Positions 3,156-23,382 of a stretch of 23,382 bases of DNA are shown piece by piece. Position numbers and translations under genes: made by a program. Position 1 is the first letter of the stretch. Each line of letters starts with the position of its first letter. A model generated the notes under the pieces. That model was not told the DNA's origin. It saw nothing but the letters and a program-made list of their open reading frames with translations, and did no database searches. The stretch comes from a virus. Location of the stretch: the IMG/VR virus record IMGVR_UViG_3300031774_000161, positions 1 to 23,382 of that record. One strand, written 5' to 3'.

Positions 3156-3488
3156 ATGAGTTTTATCAAGAAGAAAGTATCTGCTTATCCTTGGCCTGTT
3201 GAAATTAAAAAACCGTCAGAAGAAATTATTGGTGAGTTTGAAACTCATAAATTTACAATTCGATTTAAAAGATTAGCTAAAAAAGACTTAAATGATTTTC
3301 AAGATAAAGAAGATTATGAAGCCTTAAAAACAATTATTACTGGCTGGTCAGATATAAAAGATGAAGATGATAATGACATTCCTTTTAGTCAAAAAAATTT
3401 AAAAGATTTTTCAGAAGATGTTGATTTTGTTCAAGGAGTAGTAAAAGCATTTCAAACTTTCTACGCAACGGCTGATGAAAAAAACTAA
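3156..3488 (+). CDS. Tail assembly chaperone, lambda G-like (unshifted product)
   Basis: A 110-residue protein read in the zero frame, ending ADEKN then stop. In lambda-type phages the G protein coats the tape measure through its N-terminal domain and supports tube assembly. The sequence begins MSFIKKKVSAYPWPVEI, followed by a beta strand pair (HKFTIRFKRLAKKDLNDF) and an acidic helix-rich part (WSDIKDEDDNDIPFSQKNLKDF). The 'W-x-D-I-x-D-E-D-x-x-x-x-P-F-S-x-x-N-L' element is typical of this chaperone family: a Trp plus 'G/D-x-x-I-P-F-S-x-E-N' precedes the last helix. It is shorter than lambda G (140). The stop follows directly after a slippery heptamer, and the next frame continues as the T-like domain, which makes the assignment strong. 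No good Shine-Dalgarno sequence is visible before the ATG. Confidence 0.85.
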   Translation: MSFIKKKVSAYPWPVEIKKPSEEIIGEFETHKFTIRFKRLAKKDLNDFQDKEDYEALKTIITGWSDIKDEDDNDIPFSQKNLKDFSEDVDFVQGVVKAFQTFYATADEKN

Positions 3489-3829
3489 CTGATGCTGCTC
3501 TTTATTGGGTTTCGGGTGGCAGTAAATCAGATGAACAGGTAGATGAAGATGCCAAAATATTTGGTATCAAATTGCCTGAGAAGCCTAAAGAAGAAGAAAA
3601 AGGATGTGTTGTATGGGAAGAAAATTGGCAAACAGTATTAATGTTTTTAAGGATGCAAACTCAATGGGCTGTGTCAATGAGTGGTTATGTTGGTTTGAAA
3701 TATGAAGTTTTATTAGGTGCAGGAGGTTTGTTTGACCTATACAATGTAAAGGACAGACGAGAAATGCTAGAGGATTTAAAAATCATGGAAGCCGTAGCAT
3801 TGACCGAACTTAACAAGGACTCTAAATAA
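3156..3829 (+). CDS. Tail assembly chaperone GT fusion (via -1 frameshift)
   Basis: The frameshifted product is expected to be 224 residues: 110 from the G-like frame, then 114 from the -1 frame beginning LTDAALYWVSGG. The extension is also visible as a separate frame with an ATG-less start; the downstream part VWEENWQTVLMFLRMQTQW, then a Gly-rich turn, then the helix LEDLKIMEAVALTEL, matches the DUF1799 family, which is the usual C-terminal half of such chaperones. In lambda the T domain recruits tube subunits to the tape measure-G complex, and a low GT:G ratio is needed. Its stop overlaps the tape measure start (TAATG at 3827-3831), so translation of the tape measure is probably coupled to frameshifted ribosomes. 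The frameshift efficiency cannot be read from sequence. Confidence 0.85.
3479..3485 (+). promoter_or_regulatory. -1 ribosomal frameshift slippery site A_AAA_AAC
   Basis: The bases AAAAAAC are aligned with the zero frame as A_AAA_AAC, the canonical X_XXY_YYZ heptamer, and the next zero-frame codon is the TAA stop of the G-like gene. Slipping back one base resumes at CTA 3485 and opens a frame that runs without a stop to 3829. The placement, frame direction and gene order are those of the lambda G/GT system. Confidence 0.9.
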
Positions 3830-14738: not shown

Positions 14739-17700
14739 ATGGCTGATCTTCAAATAAGTCAACTGCCTGCTTTAGCAGAGGCAGATCTGGCGGCTGTAGA
14801 CGAATTAGCAATAGTTGATGATAGTGCATCAGAAACTAAACGAATTACAGCAAAAGCCTTAGTTGAAAAAGGTGTTGCATTAATTGATGCTGGTTCAATA
14901 CCTGGTACGGCACTTGCAAGTCTTGGAACAGGGACTGTTAATACAGCAGCGATAGCAACCGATGCTGTAACAGCAGATAAGATTTTGGCGGGGGCTGTTG
15001 GTGCTAGTGAAATAGCTAATGGTTCAATAACAGCGACAGAAATAGCGGCAAATACTCTTACTGCAAACGAGATAGCTCCTAATGCAATAGGTGCAAGTGA
15101 ATTAGCTGACAACGCTGTAGATACAAATGCTATAGGTGATCTTGCTGTTACTAACCAAAAGATTGCAAATGGAACTATTGCTTATGCAAAGTTAAATCTT
15201 AGTAATGCAGATATTCCTGGTGCAAAAATTGCGGATAATTCAATAACAGCAGGACAGATAGCTCCTGATGCAGTTGGTGCAAGTGAACTTGCTAATAACG
15301 CTGTTGATACAAATGCAATAGCTAACTTAGCTGTTACATCAGGAAAATTGGCAGCTAATTCTGTAACCGTCGATAAGATCGTTGATGGTGTTATTACAGG
15401 TGCAAAATTAGCAACTGGAACAATTACAGCTACCCAAATAGGTGCTAATGCTGTAGGTGCAAGTGAGCTTGCCAACGATGCTGTCGATACAAATGCAATC
15501 CTTGATGATGCTGTAACTGCTGCAAAAATTGCGGCGGGTGCTGTCGATACAACAGCGTTAGGTGCTGCGGCTGTTACAGGAGCAAAAATTGCTAATACAA
15601 CAATTACAGCGGCGAATATTGTTGCTGGAACAATTACTGCTACTGAACTTGCAGCAGATTCTGTTGGTGCTAGTGAAATAGCTGCAAATGCTGTAGGAGC
15701 TAGTGAACTTGCAGATGATGCAGTTGACACTAATGCAATCGCAAATCTTGCAGTTACTGGAGCAAAGATAGCTAATACAACGATTGCTTATGCAAAACTA
15801 AATCTTTCAGATGGAGACATCCCTGCTGCCAAGATTACTGCTAATTCTTTAACTGCTGATCAAATAGCTGCCAATGCTATAGGAGCAAGTGAATTAGCAA
15901 ATAATTCTGTTGATACTGCTGCTATAGCTGATGACGCAGTTACTGGAGCAAAGATTGCAGCAGCAACTATTACTGGAGCAAATATTGCGGCAACAACAAT
16001 TGCAGCAGGCAATATTGTTGCAAACACTCTTACTGCAAATGAAATAGCTCCTAATGCAATAGGTGCTTCAGAATTAGCAGATGATGCTGTGGACACAGCC
16101 GCTATTGCTGACTCAGCAGTAACTAACGCCAAAATTGCAAATACGACTATTGCTTATGCAAAGTTAAATCTCTCGGACGGAGATATTGCTGGAGCAAAGA
16201 TAACTAATAATTCTCTTACTGCTAATCAAATAGCAGCAAACGCTATAGGAGCAAGTGAGCTTGCCAACGATGCAGTTGACACCAATGCTATTGCAGACGA
16301 TGCGGTTACTGGAGCGAAAATCGCAGCAGGAACAATTACAGCGGCAAATATTGCTGCTGACACGATTACAGCAACTCAATTAGCTGCTGATTCTGTAGGA
16401 GCAAGCGAAATCGTTGCAAATGCAGTAGGAGCTTCAGAACTTGCAGACAATGCGGTGGATACAGCAGCCATAGCAAACTCGGCTGTAACAGGAGCGAAGA
16501 TAGCTGCTTCTACAATTACAGCAGCAAAGTTAAATTTATCTGCTGGAGATATTGATGGAACAAAGATTGCTAATAATTCAATAACAGCAAATCAAATTGC
16601 TGCTAATGCAATTACAGCAAGTGAATTAGCTGATGATGCGGTAGACACAGCAGCAATAGCAAATAATTCTGTTACGGCTGCAAAAATTGCAACAAATGCA
16701 GTTACTGCAACAGAACTTGCGAATAATGCTGTAGATACTGCTGCTGTCGCTGATGGTGCAATAACAACAGCAAAGATCGCTGATGGTGCAGTAACAACAG
16801 CAAAGCTTTCAGGAACTATTGAAGCTGGAACTCTTGCTGATGGCTCAGTAATAACAGCAAAACTTGCAGATGATGCGGTTACAGCCGCTAAACTTGGAGC
16901 AGGGGCTGTTGATACGCTTGCTTTAGGTGCAACTTCTGTAACAACTGCAAAAATTGCTGCTGGAGCAGTTACTGATGCAAAAGTTGCAAGTGGAATTAGT
17001 GGAGCAAAGCTGACTGATGGAACGGTTACAGCAGCCAAGTTCCTTACAACTGATATTGATAGATCTTTAAATATTTCGTCTGGAAAATTAGGGATCAATA
17101 ATACAATTTCTGCTGGAACAAGTGCTGGAATTAGCTATAACGCTCAGGGCTTAATAACCGCTACAACTGCTCTAGTAGCAAGCGATTTGCCTGTTGCAAC
17201 TGCTACTGCCGTTGGTGGCGTTTCTGTTCCTACGTCAGGTGGGTTGACTGTTAGTGGTACTGGTGCGTTATCAATCGCAGCAACAACAACTGGTGCTACA
17301 GCAACAAAAGTTACCTTTAATAATTTCGGACAAATAACTGGTACTGCAACTCTTGCTGCTTCTGATTTACCAAAAGCAACAGCTAGTGCTGTTGGTGCGG
17401 TTTCTGTTCCTACAGGTGGGCCACTTTCTATTGATTCAAATGGTGCAATTACAGTCGCCAACTCTGGAGTTACAGCAGGAACAGGAACAAAAGTAACAGT
17501 TGATGCAAAGGGGCGAGTAACTAATCTTGCAACTCTTACATCATCAGATTTACCTAATCACAGTGCAGCGTTAATTACTTCTGGAACCATCTCAACAGCA
17601 AGGATTGCTAATGATGCAGTTACAGGAACCAAGCTTGCAAACGCTTCAACAACGCTATTTGGATCTGTTGCTCAGACTGGATTCCCGACATCCGAGTTTA

Positions 17701-20700
17701 CAGGGCAATTTTTCTTCGATTCTGTATCTGAAGATTTATACATATATGATGGAAATGCTTATCAACCAGTAACAACTTTAACAAAAGGTTCGCTGGTCTT
17801 TGGAGGTACGTTTAACGCTGCTACAAGTAAAGTTGCAAGTGTAACAACCGCAGGTGCAGCAGGAGGTTTAACTGTAGGATCTAATGTTCCTACTCCAACA
17901 TCTAGTACTGATGGTTTATATTTAGTGGTTGAAAATGCTGGAACTCCAAGTGCGCCTGCTCCTGTAGTTGCTCTCGCTCCACCAGATTACATTTTAGGTG
18001 TTACAAATACATCTGGAAGTTCATGGGAAGAAATTGACTTATCTCAAACAGTAGCAGGTCAAGTTGCAAGTAATATTACCTTCACACCTTATGGTCAAAT
18101 TAGCAGTACTAACGTACAGGATGCTATTCAAGAATTAGAGACAGAGAAGTTAGCAAAAGCTGGTGGTACTGTGACAGGTGAGGTGCTAATAGGTAACACA
18201 GGAACACTTGTTTTTGAAGGTTCTAGTATTGATGCATTTCAGACTACTTTAGGAGTTGTTAACCCAACTACAGCAGATAAAACAATACTTTTACCTAATA
18301 CTTCTGGAACTTTAATAACAAATAACGATTCTGGGACTATTACTTCAGCAATGATTGCTGATGGAACCATTGTTAATGCTGATATAAATGCTTCTGCTGC
18401 TATTGCCCTTACCAAGTTAGAAGGCATTGATTCTGGCAAGATTATTGTTGGTAATGGATCAGGCGTTGCTGCTGAAGTTGCAGTAACAGGAGATATAGCA
18501 ATAACTAACGCAGGTGTTACTTCTATCTCTGCTGGTGCGATTGTTAATGCTGATATTTCTAACTCTGCTGCAATTACTGGCTCAAAAGTTACTACTGGAA
18601 CGACAAGTGCTGTTGGTGTTCTTCAATTAACAGATAGTGCAACATCAACTTCTACTACAACTGCTGCTACTCCTGCTGCTGTCAAGATTGCAAAGGATGC
18701 TGCTGATGCTGCTGCTGTGACAGCCAATGCTGCTTTGCCTAAAGCTGGTGGCTCATTAAGTGACAACTTAATTATTGATAATGCAAAAAGTATTCGACTT
18801 TCTGAAGCTGATTCAAATGGTTCACATTACATAGCATTAAAAGCTCCTAACGCTGTAACGGCTGACATTACTTTCACTTTGCCAGATGGTGATGGCAGTT
18901 CTGGGCAAAGGTTGCAAACCGACGGCTCTGGAAATTTAAGTTGGGGTACAGATAATTCAACAGACCCCACCAAGTTGCCATTAGCAGGTGGCACTATGTC
19001 TGGTGCTATTGCAATGGGTACAAGCAAGATCACTGGTCTTGGAAATCCAACAGCAGCACAAGATGCAGCTACTAAGACTTATGTAGATGCTGCAAGCACA
19101 ACAGGCAATGCAGCTACAGCAACAGCACTAGCAACGGCAAGAACAATAGGGGGCGTTAGTTTTGATGGTTCAGCAAATATAGATTTACCAGGCGTTAATA
19201 CTGCTGGCAACCAAAGCACTACGGGCAACGCTGCGACAGCAACGAAATTTGCTTCTGCGGTCACAATTGGTGGTGTTAGCTTTGACGGTTCAGCCAATAT
19301 CAACCTTCCTGGTGTTAACGCTGCTGGCACTCAAGACACTTCAGGGACGGCAGCACTCGCAACACAATTTACAGTTACAGCAAACAATTCTACAGACGAG
19401 GATGTTTATCCTGTTTTCGTAGACGCAGCTACTGGTTCTCAGGGTGCTGAAACAGATTCTGCTTTAACTTACAACCCTTCGACTGGAGCATTAACTACAA
19501 CAGTATTTATTGGAAATGTAACTGGAAATGTAACTGGAAACACTTCAGGCTCTTCTGGTTCTTGTACTGGAAATGCTGCTACTGCAACAAAATTCGCTTC
19601 AAGTGTAACTATTGGTGGTGTTGCTTTTGATGGATCAGCAAATATTAATCTTCCAGGTGTTAATGCTTCTGGAACGCAAGACACTTCAGGAACAGCAGCC
19701 GTAGCAACTGCAATTACTGTTGCCGATGAATCAACTGATACCTCTTGCAATGTTTTATTTACAACCGCAGCAACAGGAAATTTAGGTGCTAAGTCAGGAA
19801 CAAATTTAACTTTCAACTCAAATACTGGAGAGTTAGCAGCAACATTATTTAGTGGCTCAGGTGCTTCCTTAACGACATTAAATGCGTCAAACATTTCTAG
19901 TGGAACACTTGCAGCAGCTAGGGTTGCAACACTTAATCAAGACACAACAGGAACAGCAGCACTCGCAACTTCATTCACAGTTACAGCTAATAATTCAACC
20001 GATGAAACTGTTTATCTATTATTTGCTGATGGAGCAACAGGATCACAAGGGGCTGAGACAGATACAGGCTTAACTTATAATCCTTCAACTGGACTATTAA
20101 CTTCAACGGGATTTAGTGGAGTTGGAACTTCATTAACAGCCTTAAATGCAAGCAATTTGGCTTCAGGGACAGTAGCCACAGCAAGGTTAGGAAGTGGAAC
20201 TGCAAGTAGTTCTAATTTCTTAAGGGGAGATAATACTTGGCAGACAATAGATTTAACTGCTCTTTCTGCAAGCAACTTAACTTCTGGCACTGTTCCAGAT
20301 GCAAGATTTCCTGCAACACTTCCTGCTGCTAGTGGAGCAAACTTAACAGCTTTAAATGCTTCAAACTTAAGTTCTGGAACTGTCAATGTTGCAAGACTTG
20401 GATCAGGTAGTTCTGTTACCACCAAATTCCTAAGAGGTGACAATACTTGGCAAACAATTTCTGCCACACCAGAAGGTACAGCAATACTTTCAACAGGCGA
20501 ATCAGGCGGTACTAAGTTCCTAAGAGAAGACGGCGACGGAACGTGTTCTTGGCAATCCGTTCCTGCCGCAGTCACAATTAATAATCAGGCAGACAATAGG
20601 ATTGTTACAGCCACTGGAACGACTAATACTTTAAATGGAGAGGCCAGTCTTACTTTTGATGGAACTAATTTAGATCTTGGTGATGATAAGAAAATTCGTC

Positions 20701-23382
20701 TTGGGGATTCTGCTGAGTTATCACTTTATACACGAGGTTCTGATTCCAATTCTGTTATTGAAGAATCTGGATCAGGAGTTTTATTTGTTTCAGCACCGTT
20801 TGTAAGAATTACTAATAGTGGATTAAGTACCTCAGCAGCACTTTTCCAAACTGCTGGATCATGTGAGTTGTCATACGCAGGAACCAAGAAGATAGAAACG
20901 ACTTCTTCAGGAGTGGCAGTTACAGGAGCATTAACAATAAGTGGAGATCTCACTGTAAATGGCACAACTACTACGATTGATACAACAACACTTCAGGTAG
21001 AAGATAAGAATATAGAAATCGGAAAAGTATCAAGTCCTAGTGATAGCACCGCAGATGGAGGGGGCATAACTTTACTTGGAGCTACAAATAAGACATGGAA
21101 CTGGGTTAATTCAACTGATGCTTGGACATCTTCCGAACATATTCAAGTTGCTAGTGGTAAGACATTTATTGGAGATGGTTCAACCTTAACTGCTTTAAAC
21201 GCTTCAAACTTAGCTTCTGGAACGGTAGCACCAGCGAGACTTGGAAGTGGATCGGCTTCTCAATATAACTTCTTAAGAGGTGATGGTTCTTGGCAAGAAG
21301 TGATGACTCTAGGAGGAGGCAACTTCAATTCTGGGGCTGATGTGAAGTTTCAAGGTAGTGCTTCAAATAAAGATCTTGAGTGGGATGCGTCAGCATATTC
21401 TTTAATATTCAATGATGATGTAAAAGCAGTATTTGGAACAAGTTCAGACGGCCTAGAAATATTCCATAATGCAAGTGATAGCGTTATAAATGATAATGGG
21501 ACAGGCTCTTTAAAACTTCAACTTGGCGGTTCTACCAAAGCAGAGGTAGTTTCTGGTGGTTTTACAGTAACAGGAACAGCAACAGCGACTACCTTTAGTG
21601 GTTCGGGTGCTTCTCTTTCTAATTTAAACGCTGATAATATTTCTTCTGGAACAGTACCAACAGCAAGACTTGGAAGTGGTACAGCTTCAAGCTCTAACTT
21701 CTTAAGAGGTGATGGATCGTGGCAGACAATAGATGTTTCAGCTTACGCTCCATTAGCAGGAGCAACCTTCACTGGTGATGTTCAATTTAATGGAGACAAC
21801 TACAACCTTCTCTGGGATAAGTCAGATAACGCTTTAGAACTTGCTCAACAAGCGACCCTTAAAATTGGTTCTTATACGATCACAGAAAATTCAGGTGGTT
21901 ATTTGCAATTCGATAGCAACAGTGCTGCTGGTAGTACATATTTTAAAGATGATACCCAATTTAATATCAATTCAGCAGTAATTAAGTTTGAAAATTACGC
22001 ATCAAATCAAGATTATTTTAAAGCAACTTCTTCGGCAGTTGAATTATATGCAAGCGGTACAAAAAGACTTCATACGAATAGTAACGGCGTATACATAACT
22101 GGATCATGTTATGCGAGTGGAGGATTTAGCGGCTCAGGTGCAAACTTAACTAACCTTCCAGGTGTCACTTCAGATGCTCAGAAAAATACGGTTGGTGGTA
22201 CAAACGCAGGAGATAGTTTCAGTGGAACAAGTGCGGAATACAATACGTTATTTGGCTACGATACTGGAACTGCAATAACAACAGGCGATAAAAACACAGC
22301 CTTTGGTTATAGGGCTATGTATCACATAAATACAGGCTCAGATAATACATACATGGGATTTGAGGCGGGAGAAGGAGGACAAGATAGAAATAAAAATACT
22401 TATATTGGTTCATACGCTGGTAAGAACAACAGTACTGGATTTAACAATACAGCTATTGGATATTCTGCATTAGGTCAATCAGGAACAGGAGGTGGAAATG
22501 TCTGTGTAGGTTATGAAGCAGGTACTGCTGTAGGTGGTGATGGTAGTGAAAATGTAATTCTGGGTATGTCGGCAGGTAGTCTCGGTGGAAATTATTCAAT
22601 AAGGAATGTAGCTATTGGATCACAAGCAATAGGGGCTGGAAATGGAGCCGTCAAAGAAAACGTAGCTATCGGCTATAAAACATTATATGGAGGATCAGGT
22701 GGTATTACAGGCGATAGAAATATAGCAATTGGATTTGAGGCAGGAAAAACAGTTACTTCAGGTGAAAAAAATATTGCAATTGGTACTGGTGCTGGTGGTG
22801 CTCTTGGAAGTAATTCTGGAAATATATTTATTGGAGATAGCGCAGGATACAGTGCTGGTAGTGCTGCTGATTCTATTTGTATTGGTAATTCAGCAGATCC
22901 TAATGATGGAACTGACAATATAGCGATTGGTCATAATGCTGTTAACGAGCAATTTAGTAGTCATCAAATAACTCTTGGACACACAAATATCACCAGTTTC
23001 CGTATCCCAGGAATTGATTTCTATCTAAAAGACAATGGTGGTACGCCTAGTCAAGGACAAGTATTAACAGCAGATGCGAATGGTAAAGGTTACTGGGCTG
23101 ATACTAGTGGTGGGGTTTCAGGTGAGTTTACTGCTACAGCCGATGGTGCTATTACCGCTAACGATCCTGTAAGCATTATGGGTGACGGTAAATTGAAAAA
23201 ATGTGGAGAAGTTACTTTTGATGCTGATTGGACAATGGGATCTACAACAACTCTTGATTCAACAAAGAAATGGGAATATTCTGCTGGCGCTCCTGATCCT
23301 CACAAAACTAATAGATTTGCAATTACTTTTACGGATGATAATAGTGATAAATATGTCTATTTACAGATTTACACTATCTCTG
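14739..23382 (+). CDS. Giant tail fibre protein (3' partial, at least 2881 residues)
   Basis: Translating this frame codon by codon from ATG 14739 to the right edge shows no stop, so one ORF of 8.6 kb continues past the window. Residues 1-64 (ADLQISQLPALAEADLAA, then ETKRITAKALVE) form the probable attachment domain, a wording I know from marine phage fibres. Then: about 65-770 tandem decapeptides; about 810-895 a duplicated SDLP...AVG...VSVPT block; 980-1130 a non-repetitive part with FFFDSVSEDLYIYDG; 1410-1450 the common fibre block LPLAGGTMSGAI...TKTYVDAA; 1469-1780 a duplicated 115-residue module; 1803-2331 four FLRGD repeats around a VNGTTTTIDTTTLQVEDKN block; 2502-2747 a beta-roll-like array. 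The right-hand end reads GQVLTADANGKGYWAD, which in many fibres leads to an intramolecular chaperone domain; that would lie outside. It presumably binds the host surface. Only a weak ribosome binding site (AAGAG) precedes the start. Confidence 0.88.
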   Translation, partial: MADLQISQLPALAEADLAAVDELAIVDDSASETKRITAKALVEKGVALIDAGSIPGTALASLGTGTVNTAAIATDAVTADKILAGAVGASEIANGSITATEIAANTLTANEIAPNAIGASELADNAVDTNAIGDLAVTNQKIANGTIAYAKLNLSNADIPGAKIADNSITAGQIAPDAVGASELANNAVDTNAIANLAVTSGKLAANSVTVDKIVDGVITGAKLATGTITATQIGANAVGASELANDAVDTNAILDDAVTAAKIAAGAVDTTALGAAAVTGAKIANTTITAANIVAGTITATELAADSVGASEIAANAVGASELADDAVDTNAIANLAVTGAKIANTTIAYAKLNLSDGDIPAAKITANSLTADQIAANAIGASELANNSVDTAAIADDAVTGAKIAAATITGANIAATTIAAGNIVANTLTANEIAPNAIGASELADDAVDTAAIADSAVTNAKIANTTIAYAKLNLSDGDIAGAKITNNSLTANQIAANAIGASELANDAVDTNAIADDAVTGAKIAAGTITAANIAADTITATQLAADSVGASEIVANAVGASELADNAVDTAAIANSAVTGAKIAASTITAAKLNLSAGDIDGTKIANNSITANQIAANAITASELADDAVDTAAIANNSVTAAKIATNAVTATELANNAVDTAAVADGAITTAKIADGAVTTAKLSGTIEAGTLADGSVITAKLADDAVTAAKLGAGAVDTLALGATSVTTAKIAAGAVTDAKVASGISGAKLTDGTVTAAKFLTTDIDRSLNISSGKLGINNTISAGTSAGISYNAQGLITATTALVASDLPVATATAVGGVSVPTSGGLTVSGTGALSIAATTTGATATKVTFNNFGQITGTATLAASDLPKATASAVGAVSVPTGGPLSIDSNGAITVANSGVTAGTGTKVTVDAKGRVTNLATLTSSDLPNHSAALITSGTISTARIANDAVTGTKLANASTTLFGSVAQTGFPTSEFTGQFFFDSVSEDLYIYDGNAYQPVTTLTKGSLVFGGTFNAATSKVASVTTAGAAGGLTVGSNVPTPTSSTDGLYLVVENAGTPSAPAPVVALAPPDYILGVTNTSGSSWEEIDLSQTVAGQVASNITFTPYGQISSTNVQDAIQELETEKLAKAGGTVTGEVLIGNTGTLVFEGSSIDAFQTTLGVVNPTTADKTILLPNTSGTLITNNDSGTITSAMIADGTIVNADINASAAIALTKLEGIDSGKIIVGNGSGVAAEVAVTGDIAITNAGVTSISAGAIVNADISNSAAITGSKVTTGTTSAVGVLQLTDSATSTSTTTAATPAAVKIAKDAADAAAVTANAALPKAGGSLSDNLIIDNAKSIRLSEADSNGSHYIALKAPNAVTADITFTLPDGDGSSGQRLQTDGSGNLSWGTDNSTDPTKLPLAGGTMSGAIAMGTSKITGLGNPTAAQDAATKTYVDAASTTGNAATATALATARTIGGVSFDGSANIDLPGVNTAGNQSTTGNAATATKFASAVTIGGVSFDGSANINLPGVNAAGTQDTSGTAALATQFTVTANNSTDEDVYPVFVDAATGSQGAETDSALTYNPSTGALTTTVFIGNVTGNVTGNTSGSSGSCTGNAATATKFASSVTIGGVAFDGSANINLPGVNASGTQDTSGTAAVATAITVADESTDTSCNVLFTTAATGNLGAKSGTNLTFNSNTGELAATLFSGSGASLTTLNASNISSGTLAAARVATLNQDTTGTAALATSFTVTANNSTDETVYLLFADGATGSQGAETDTGLTYNPSTGLLTSTGFSGVGTSLTALNASNLASGTVATARLGSGTASSSNFLRGDNTWQTIDLTALSASNLTSGTVPDARFPATLPAASGANLTALNASNLSSGTVNVARLGSGSSVTTKFLRGDNTWQTISATPEGTAILSTGESGGTKFLREDGDGTCSWQSVPAAVTINNQADNRIVTATGTTNTLNGEASLTFDGTNLDLGDDKKIRLGDSAELSLYTRGSDSNSVIEESGSGVLFVSAPFVRITNSGLSTSAALFQTAGSCELSYAGTKKIETTSSGVAVTGALTISGDLTVNGTTTTIDTTTLQVEDKNIEIGKVSSPSDSTADGGGITLLGATNKTWNWVNSTDAWTSSEHIQVASGKTFIGDGSTLTALNASNLASGTVAPARLGSGSASQYNFLRGDGSWQEVMTLGGGNFNSGADVKFQGSASNKDLEWDASAYSLIFNDDVKAVFGTSSDGLEIFHNASDSVINDNGTGSLKLQLGGSTKAEVVSGGFTVTGTATATTFSGSGASLSNLNADNISSGTVPTARLGSGTASSSNFLRGDGSWQTIDVSAYAPLAGATFTGDVQFNGDNYNLLWDKSDNALELAQQATLKIGSYTITENSGGYLQFDSNSAAGSTYFKDDTQFNINSAVIKFENYASNQDYFKATSSAVELYASGTKRLHTNSNGVYITGSCYASGGFSGSGANLTNLPGVTSDAQKNTVGGTNAGDSFSGTSAEYNTLFGYDTGTAITTGDKNTAFGYRAMYHINTGSDNTYMGFEAGEGGQDRNKNTYIGSYAGKNNSTGFNNTAIGYSALGQSGTGGGNVCVGYEAGTAVGGDGSENVILGMSAGSLGGNYSIRNVAIGSQAIGAGNGAVKENVAIGYKTLYGGSGGITGDRNIAIGFEAGKTVTSGEKNIAIGTGAGGALGSNSGNIFIGDSAGYSAGSAADSICIGNSADPNDGTDNIAIGHNAVNEQFSSHQITLGHTNITSFRIPGIDFYLKDNGGTPSQGQVLTADANGKGYWADTSGGVSGEFTATADGAITANDPVSIMGDGKLKKCGEVTFDADWTMGSTTTLDSTKKWEYSAGAPDPHKTNRFAITFTDDNSDKYVYLQIYTIS
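14931..17050 (+). repeat. Tandem decapeptide repeats in the fibre (30-nt period)
   Basis: The protein reads as consecutive ten-residue units such as NAVGASELAD, NAVDTNAIAD, DAVTGAKIAA, GTITAANIAA and NSLTANQIAA. The pattern is small/Asn, x, Val/Ile, Thr/Gly/Asp, x, x, x, Ile/Leu, Ala, x. By hand count about 60 units occur, broken by four 22-residue units. Near the 3' end two units shrink to nine residues. Nucleotide identity between units is moderate, so the repetition is mainly at protein level. Confidence 0.9.
15171..16574 (+). repeat. 366-nt super-repeat set by a 22-residue KLNL unit
   Basis: Four copies of a 22-residue unit, with core AYAKLNLSDGDI or close, start at 15171, 15777, 16143 and 16509. 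The last two spacings are exactly 366 nt (ten decapeptides plus one 22-residue unit); the first is 606 nt, which is 366 plus eight extra decapeptides (240 nt). The arrangement indicates segmental duplication of a whole 122-residue block. Confidence 0.85.
17178..17420 (+). repeat. Two copies of an SDLP-AVG-VSVPT block, 180 nt apart
   Basis: The fibre sequence ASDLPVATATAVGGVSVPT (from 17178) recurs as ASDLPKATASAVGAVSVPT (from 17358). The two copies are offset by exactly 180 nt (60 residues), and each is followed by a beta-rich Gly/Thr segment, so a 60-residue domain has been duplicated. Confidence 0.75.
19143..20121 (+). repeat. Duplicated 345-nt fibre module with third partial copies
   Basis: TIGGVSFDGSANI-LPGVN occurs from 19143, 19263 and 19608; the last two mark a 345-nt (115-residue) tandem duplication. 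Each is followed by SGTAA, an 'ITV/FTV...STD' strand block and a 'G.LTYNPSTG' or 'LTFNSNTG' block. A third copy of the second half begins at 19947 and is very close to the first (NNSTDE, ATGSQGAETD, LTYNPSTG), offset 606 nt. Confidence 0.8.
20145..21731 (+). repeat. Four 105-nt NASNL-FLRGD-W repeats
   Basis: Four 35-residue copies lie at 20145-20249, 20355-20459, 21198-21302 and 21627-21731, each exactly 105 nt. All read N/D-A-x-N-L/I-x-S-G-T-V, then ARLGSG, five or six variable residues, FLRGD and a final Trp-Gln. They are dispersed rather than tandem and frame longer unique segments, as interdomain linkers would. The 'RGD' here is probably incidental. Confidence 0.85.
22242..22979 (+). repeat. 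N-x-x-I-G beta-roll-like array, 15 motifs
   Basis: Motifs of the type N-T/V/I-A-I-G-x-x-A-G start at 22242, 22293, 22344, 22395, 22446, 22497, 22551, 22605, 22659, 22719, 22770, 22821, 22872, 22917 and 22965. Spacing is 51 nt for eight steps, with 54, 60, 45 and 48 elsewhere. The wording resembles the head repeats of YadA-type trimeric autotransporters, though those are usually 14-15 residues and these are mostly 17. Confidence 0.85.

Follow-up and report, generated by a model that had tools for sequence, protein, structure and literature searches.

The window, a linear virus record of 23,382 bases taken over its whole length (IMG/VR record IMGVR_UViG_3300031774_000161), has a gene content resembling that of a siphophage head–tail module. 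It encodes a partial major head protein with about 49–50% identity to those of Synechococcus phages S-CBS1 and S-CBS3 and roseophage CRP-811, a tail terminator, a minor tail protein, a tape measure protein (1278 amino acids), and a protein with a match to central tail fibre J. The 3′ end is occupied by a giant tail fibre gene, the product of which carries an array of short repeats predicted to form a β-roll of the YadA-head kind. This array, its relatives, and its place in the fibre are described here. Megablast of the whole window against the phage collection gave no match.

Fibre gene and repeat array

The following features, all on the plus strand, are referred to below.

14739 to >23381, plus strand: gene for a giant tail fibre within a tail module of siphophage type, taken from the list of open reading frames (ORFs); 2881 codons, 3′ end open at the contig end
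20936–21239, plus strand: DNA preceding the array, with 87% identity to positions 165–468 of a second viral contig (L002) over 304 bases (blastn)
22185–22241, plus strand: possible entry coil that starts at residue 2483 and reads N-T-V-G-G-T-N-A-G (AlphaFold2 strand at 2484–2486)
22242–22979, plus strand: predicted β-roll array of 14 relaxed N-x-h-h-G coils and a final ITLG (motif count, AlphaFold2, and superposition)
22962–23012, plus strand: exit segment HQITLGHTNITSFRIPG, with counterparts behind the arrays of some other fibres
23111–23381, plus strand: first part of a conserved C-terminal region that is truncated at the contig end; 23111–23368 (258 bases) shares 81% DNA identity with L002 1401–1655

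Because PHROG tail fibre families match over much of the giant protein (best E-value 5.9e-92, with the best stretches within residues 162–1602) and the gene is located in a tail module, the product was classified as a phage tail fibre, on both genomic context and homology. A trimeric autotransporter adhesin would have an export signal and a C-terminal membrane anchor, and the part of the protein in which an anchor would lie falls outside the contig.

The array corresponds to residues 2502–2747 of the fibre ORF, and in this respect the coordinates and frame given in a preliminary description of the sequence were correct. The same description counted fifteen N-x-x-I-G-x-x-A-G motifs. In this strict form, just four are present in the protein (at residues 2553, 2661, 2678, and 2695), whereas the relaxed motif [NDS]-x-[AFYVILCE]-[IFLVM]-G-x-x-[AST] occurs 14 times in the domain and once outside it, at residue 2091. 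A fifteenth candidate (QITLG, residues 2743–2747) is recognizable by eye and has no predicted strand. The repeat is far beyond chance, as relaxed motifs averaged 0.25 and never exceeded three when the residues of the domain were shuffled 5000 times. The spacings of the 14 motifs are, in order, 17, 17, 17, 17, 17, 18, 18, 18, 20, 17, 17, 17, and 15 residues; 8 of the 13 are thus 17 residues, consistent with the spacing of mostly 51 nucleotides noted earlier. Self-identity of the domain residues was 27.5% at a lag of 17, 19.8% at 34, and 16.4% at 51, with values near 6–14% at most of the remaining lags from 8 to 59.

The array is absent from the listed direct-repeat families of at least 45 nucleotides in the fibre ORF, which points to divergence between its copies at the nucleotide level. 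Further diverged direct repeats are present elsewhere in the fibre gene (window positions 14935–16786 and 20109–21724): the N-terminal part contains families D1 and D2, and D3 is a 134-nucleotide module in four copies.

Predicted fold and relatives of the array

An AlphaFold2 monomer model was built on a set of 52 sequences (A1), consisting of the window domain and 51 relatives. The relatives, mostly longer ones, were chosen from 193 candidate segments obtained by profile searches of at least 120 viral loci from a motif scan, with loci of the phage collection left out. The predicted structure is a solenoid with one strand per repeat (predicted local distance difference test score, pLDDT, 82; predicted template modelling score, pTM, 0.81), and confidence drops beyond approximately model residue 240. 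All 15 predicted strands have G either as their last residue or directly after it, and among the G columns of A1, five are invariant and two reach at least 90%; the conserved G8 of each coil in YadA-type heads is thereby represented.

The model superposes on solved adhesin heads as a left-handed solenoid, the handedness being taken from the superpositions. The highest-ranking chains in VIA-align were UspA1 (Z 16.9, 208 residues aligned, 22% identity), CbpF (Z 15.6, 182 aligned), and BpaC (Z 15.6, 224 aligned, 25% identity), followed by a second CbpF chain (Z 15.4), a ryegrass ice-binding protein (Z 13.6), and YadA (Z 13.5, 143 aligned, 26% identity). In these superpositions, 223 residues of the model correspond to 187 of CbpF and 195 to 165 of YadA. 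The prediction provides good support for a left-handed parallel β-roll of the YadA-head kind at residues ~2483–2747, and bears out the proposal in the preliminary description of a YadA-related coil with a period longer than 14 residues in a phage fibre.

An alternative is that the coil is a three-sided left-handed β-helix (LbH) of the hexapeptide kind. The LbH coil has 18 residues, which is close to 17, and enzymes with hexapeptide helices occupy many rows of the VIA-align ranking at Z values of 10 to 12.6. Their Z values are nevertheless no higher than 12.6, and their identities in the rows shown are 4–12%, lower in both measures than those of the adhesin heads. In addition, the model contains one strand per coil. 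We consider an LbH improbable, and the YadA-type roll is retained as the predicted fold.

The stretch 22179–23381 matches PHROG 6002, 4636, and 23837 (E-values 8.4e-25, 4.9e-24, and 8.3e-20), which are categorized as virion structural or tail spike proteins; beyond these profile matches, the families provide a category name only. By tblastn, the array region was found in 44 of 50,697 phage records, mostly cyanophages, all at <60% identity and none covering 80% of the query; one of the matches lies in a putative tail structural protein of roseophage CRP-1. A Foldseek search of predicted viral proteins (BFVD) returned 65 matches at E ≤ 0.001, and the best 50 of these include the tail fibre of phage P-SSM2 and one entry with the name YadA-like head domain-containing. 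Large eukaryotic viruses also contribute proteins to the BFVD matches (Tupanvirus, Bodo saltans virus, Yasminevirus, and Edafosvirus). No match to the window domain was obtained with phmmer up to an E-value of 10 or in NCBIfam, and a match to Pfam UspA1_rep was below threshold (E-value 0.0063, 17.1 bits versus 27).

Several results weigh against the assignment to the YadA-head kind. The expected profile similarity to head repeats was obtained in part: the window domain itself does not match Pfam YadA_head (PF05658, cut-off 25 bits) even at an E-value of 10, whereas some relatives do, although at E ≤ 1 just 4 of the 52 A1 sequences give a match (best E-value 1.6e-4). The A1 profile retrieved no YadA head from the PDB sequences and weakly retrieved hexapeptide-type chains (7ar9, E-value 0.041; 4n27, E-value 4.8), a result that favours the LbH. 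In the structural comparison, Foldseek gave no PDB match at E ≤ 0.001, the best being the ice-binding protein (E-value 0.092) and then CbpF (0.12), and the VIA-align order is a re-ranking of 222 chains preselected by Foldseek. DSSP assigned the model one strand per coil with a few extra bridge residues and did not directly show a two-sided coil.

Coil length in viral and cellular arrays

The preliminary description noted a period longer than in adhesin heads and suggested a wider coil from it. Spacings were collected from at least 120 viral and at least 115 cellular stretches containing N-T-A-I-G-[YF]-x-A-G, a motif that may under-sample 14-residue heads. A spacing of 17 was the commonest in both sets, accounting for 835 of the 1308 spacings in the 120 viral loci sampled and 282 of the 467 in 114 cellular loci; a spacing of 14 was found in none and two, respectively. 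One of the 115 cellular loci (L216) had no usable chain and was dropped. Single-motif loci numbered 5 among the 120 viral and 35 among the 114 cellular loci, and the viral arrays ranged from 1 to 62 motifs. Many of the 80 cellular loci listed belong to Bacteroidota.

According to PMC9543794, a YadA-type coil is 14 residues long, or mostly 15 in UspA1, and loops are rarely inserted where core position 14 is followed by position 1. The phage array resembles the YadA, UspA1, BpaC, and CbpF heads of trimeric autotransporter adhesins in predicted fold (Z 13.5–16.9) and in having an h-G step in each coil. It differs from them in having 17 residues per coil, in placing N four rather than five residues before the core G, and in being part of a phage fibre. 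The array is best described as a longer-coil variant that would work like a head, not as a canonical head.

Both coil lengths were found together in L195 (Algibacter amylolyticus, NZ_JACHGE010000003.1), where the array of a 692-amino-acid ORF changes along its length from 17-residue coils to stretches of 14-residue YadA-head coils; this ORF matches PF05658 with 75.6 bits (cut-off 25). The joining of 17- and 14-residue coils in a single array also argues against the LbH. A head found by PF05658 (L245) showed mostly 14-residue spacings with the same kind of spacing script. PF05658 was present in one of six genomes in one set and in one of 94 in another. The cellular 17-residue arrays share the unit consensus and period of the viral arrays, and differ in coming from bacterial assemblies, some possibly from prophages, and, in L195, in running on into 14-residue coils.

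In a column comparison, 801 distinct viral units were set against all the 14-residue units shown for L245 (11) and L195 (14), with units of other lengths omitted. In the best register, the viral G falls on YadA G8, and the second half of the coil takes up the three extra residues. Controls with permuted columns reached the best score in 6 of 500 trials for L245 and in 0 of 500 for L195. Among 806 distinct viral units, G is found at core position 1 in 76%, and the most variable positions are 9, 10, 13, 2, and 3 (3.4–3.9 bits), the 100% G of the h-G step being due to the construction of the set. These data and the residue ratios of the superpositions fit a coil with a 14-residue-like core, including the h-G step, and approximately three extra residues in its second half. 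A location exactly between core positions 14 and 1 is compatible with the comparison and is not claimed, as neighbouring placements score nearly equally.

Some of these observations count against the YadA-head reading. None of the 13 spacings in the window is 14, and the 17-to-14 chimera was seen once, in L195, among the 240 loci examined. The scores of neighbouring placements of the extra residues, 8.20 to 7.37, do not separate them, and part of the register in the column comparison is fixed by the motif used for collection.

Threonine occupies two neighbouring extra-turn positions in 77% and 67% of the viral 17-residue units, recalling the ladders of ice-binding proteins. By eye, such a threonine ladder is incomplete in the array of the window. 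A limited literature search returned no description of a 17-residue roll, from which no absence from print is claimed.

Position in the fibre and possible role

The preliminary description placed the array near the distal end of the fibre. This is doubtful because the array is followed by a conserved region and the contig stops before the C-terminus. At least 134 more residues are encoded downstream of the array in the window, and ~90 of them are 71% identical to the protein of L002, which continues ~427 residues past the match to a stop codon. The blocks of DNA shared by the two contigs are separated by 1871 bases, including the array, in the window and by 932 bases in L002, whose ORF contains one isolated relaxed motif and no array. 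With a conserved region after it and a close relative lacking it, the array looks like an exchangeable cassette, not a tip, inserted between a shaft segment and the conserved C-terminal region.

The cassette interpretation is weakened by two points. It is based on one contig pair, the window and L002. The L002 protein also aligns to the shaft ahead of the array, up to residue 2495, with 35% identity, so that gain or loss of the array combined with divergence would be indistinguishable from a swap.

The C-terminal fibre region of L002 (positions 1399–2949) was without a convincing relative: the only carrier found among the viral contigs was L002 itself, none was found in the phage collection, and no convincing match was obtained in Pfam, NCBIfam, or the PDB sequences. 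A structure prediction from two sequences (pLDDT 36.5, pTM 0.31) was not used.

Taken together, we lean towards a YadA-kind roll that is built as an exchangeable cassette into a very long siphophage-type fibre, presumably a homotrimer. The roll would form a stiff trimeric segment, the variable positions of which may touch the host surface and help adsorption, and the C-terminal region beyond the roll would be the actual tip. Receptor binding by the array itself, as suggested in the preliminary description, is plausible; that L002 manages with no array counts against this role.

A strong rival to the adsorption role is that the roll serves purely as a rigid spacer or stalk that sets the length and stiffness of the fibre, binding being the task of the C-terminal region beyond it. 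The conserved region after the array, the retention of the C-terminal region in L002 in the absence of an array, and the wide range of array lengths all favour a spacer. The position of the array in other fibres points in the opposite direction. In the 102 closed viral ORFs (18 ORFs open at the 3′ end were left out), the array ends within 200 residues of the C-terminus in 53, and an S74-like motif follows the array in 40, a rough count because the S74 pattern misses some variants (Pfam confirms S74 in locus L003). Known fibres lose their S74 chaperone by cleavage, after which the roll would lie close to the fibre end. A pattern like the exit segment follows the array in 17 of the 102 ORFs, ~15 of them convincing by eye. 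The high variability of positions 9, 10, 13, 2, and 3 of the viral unit would also suit a contact surface if these positions face outwards, as assumed here, although a plain lack of constraint fits too. Finally, a YadA domain has been placed within the variable region of a published fibre, as the section of PMC3909814 on that fibre indicates. Overall, a spacer alone seems to us the less probable explanation, and an adsorption role for the roll is tentatively preferred.

In the published case, a pelagiphage fibre has a C-terminal YadA domain at which metagenomic coverage drops, and a role in host recognition was suggested (Mizuno et al. 2014, PMC3909814, in the passage on this fibre). Compared by description, both are marine phage fibres with a domain of this kind in their C-terminal part, whereas the published one has a T7-like N-terminus and the one described here is a giant siphophage-type fibre with a further C-terminal region. 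In the sections of PMC3728262 that deal with yadA, homologues are noted in several phages, and in the two Salmonella phages of that study, they are not located near tail genes. YadA is also listed among the host-interaction genes of a hypervariable region in viruses of a green alga (PMC12906663, in the part describing that region).

Elsewhere in the window, two ORFs in different frames (3156–3488 and 3572–3829) precede the tape measure gene. The first matches a PHROG tail assembly chaperone (E-value 2.3e-5), and an AAAAAAC run near 3479–3485 with an open −1 frame, judged by eye, fits the usual chaperone frameshift.

The repeat type is already common in phages, and the fibre of a marine phage was described with a YadA domain as early as 2014 (PMC3909814, as above). 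New here are the L002 contig, with shared flanks and no array, and the conserved stretch that follows the array. A striking repeat is thereby placed in a known structural family, its odd-looking period proves to be the commonest among the relatives sampled, and its position is corrected to that of a cassette ahead of the fibre end. The chimera of L195 would allow both coil types to be compared within one protein. It is conceivable, though we would put it somewhat short of probable, that the 17-residue roll represents a distinct class, sister to the 14-residue YadA head and very widespread, with a regular short extra turn per coil, in phages, large viruses, and many bacteria, and that phages exchange it as a cassette at the junction of shaft and tip, thereby gaining or losing a second binding surface on the side of the fibre while the tip remains unchanged. 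If the presence or absence of the array holds beyond one contig pair, it would provide a simple way to alter the contact between fibre and host with the tip kept.

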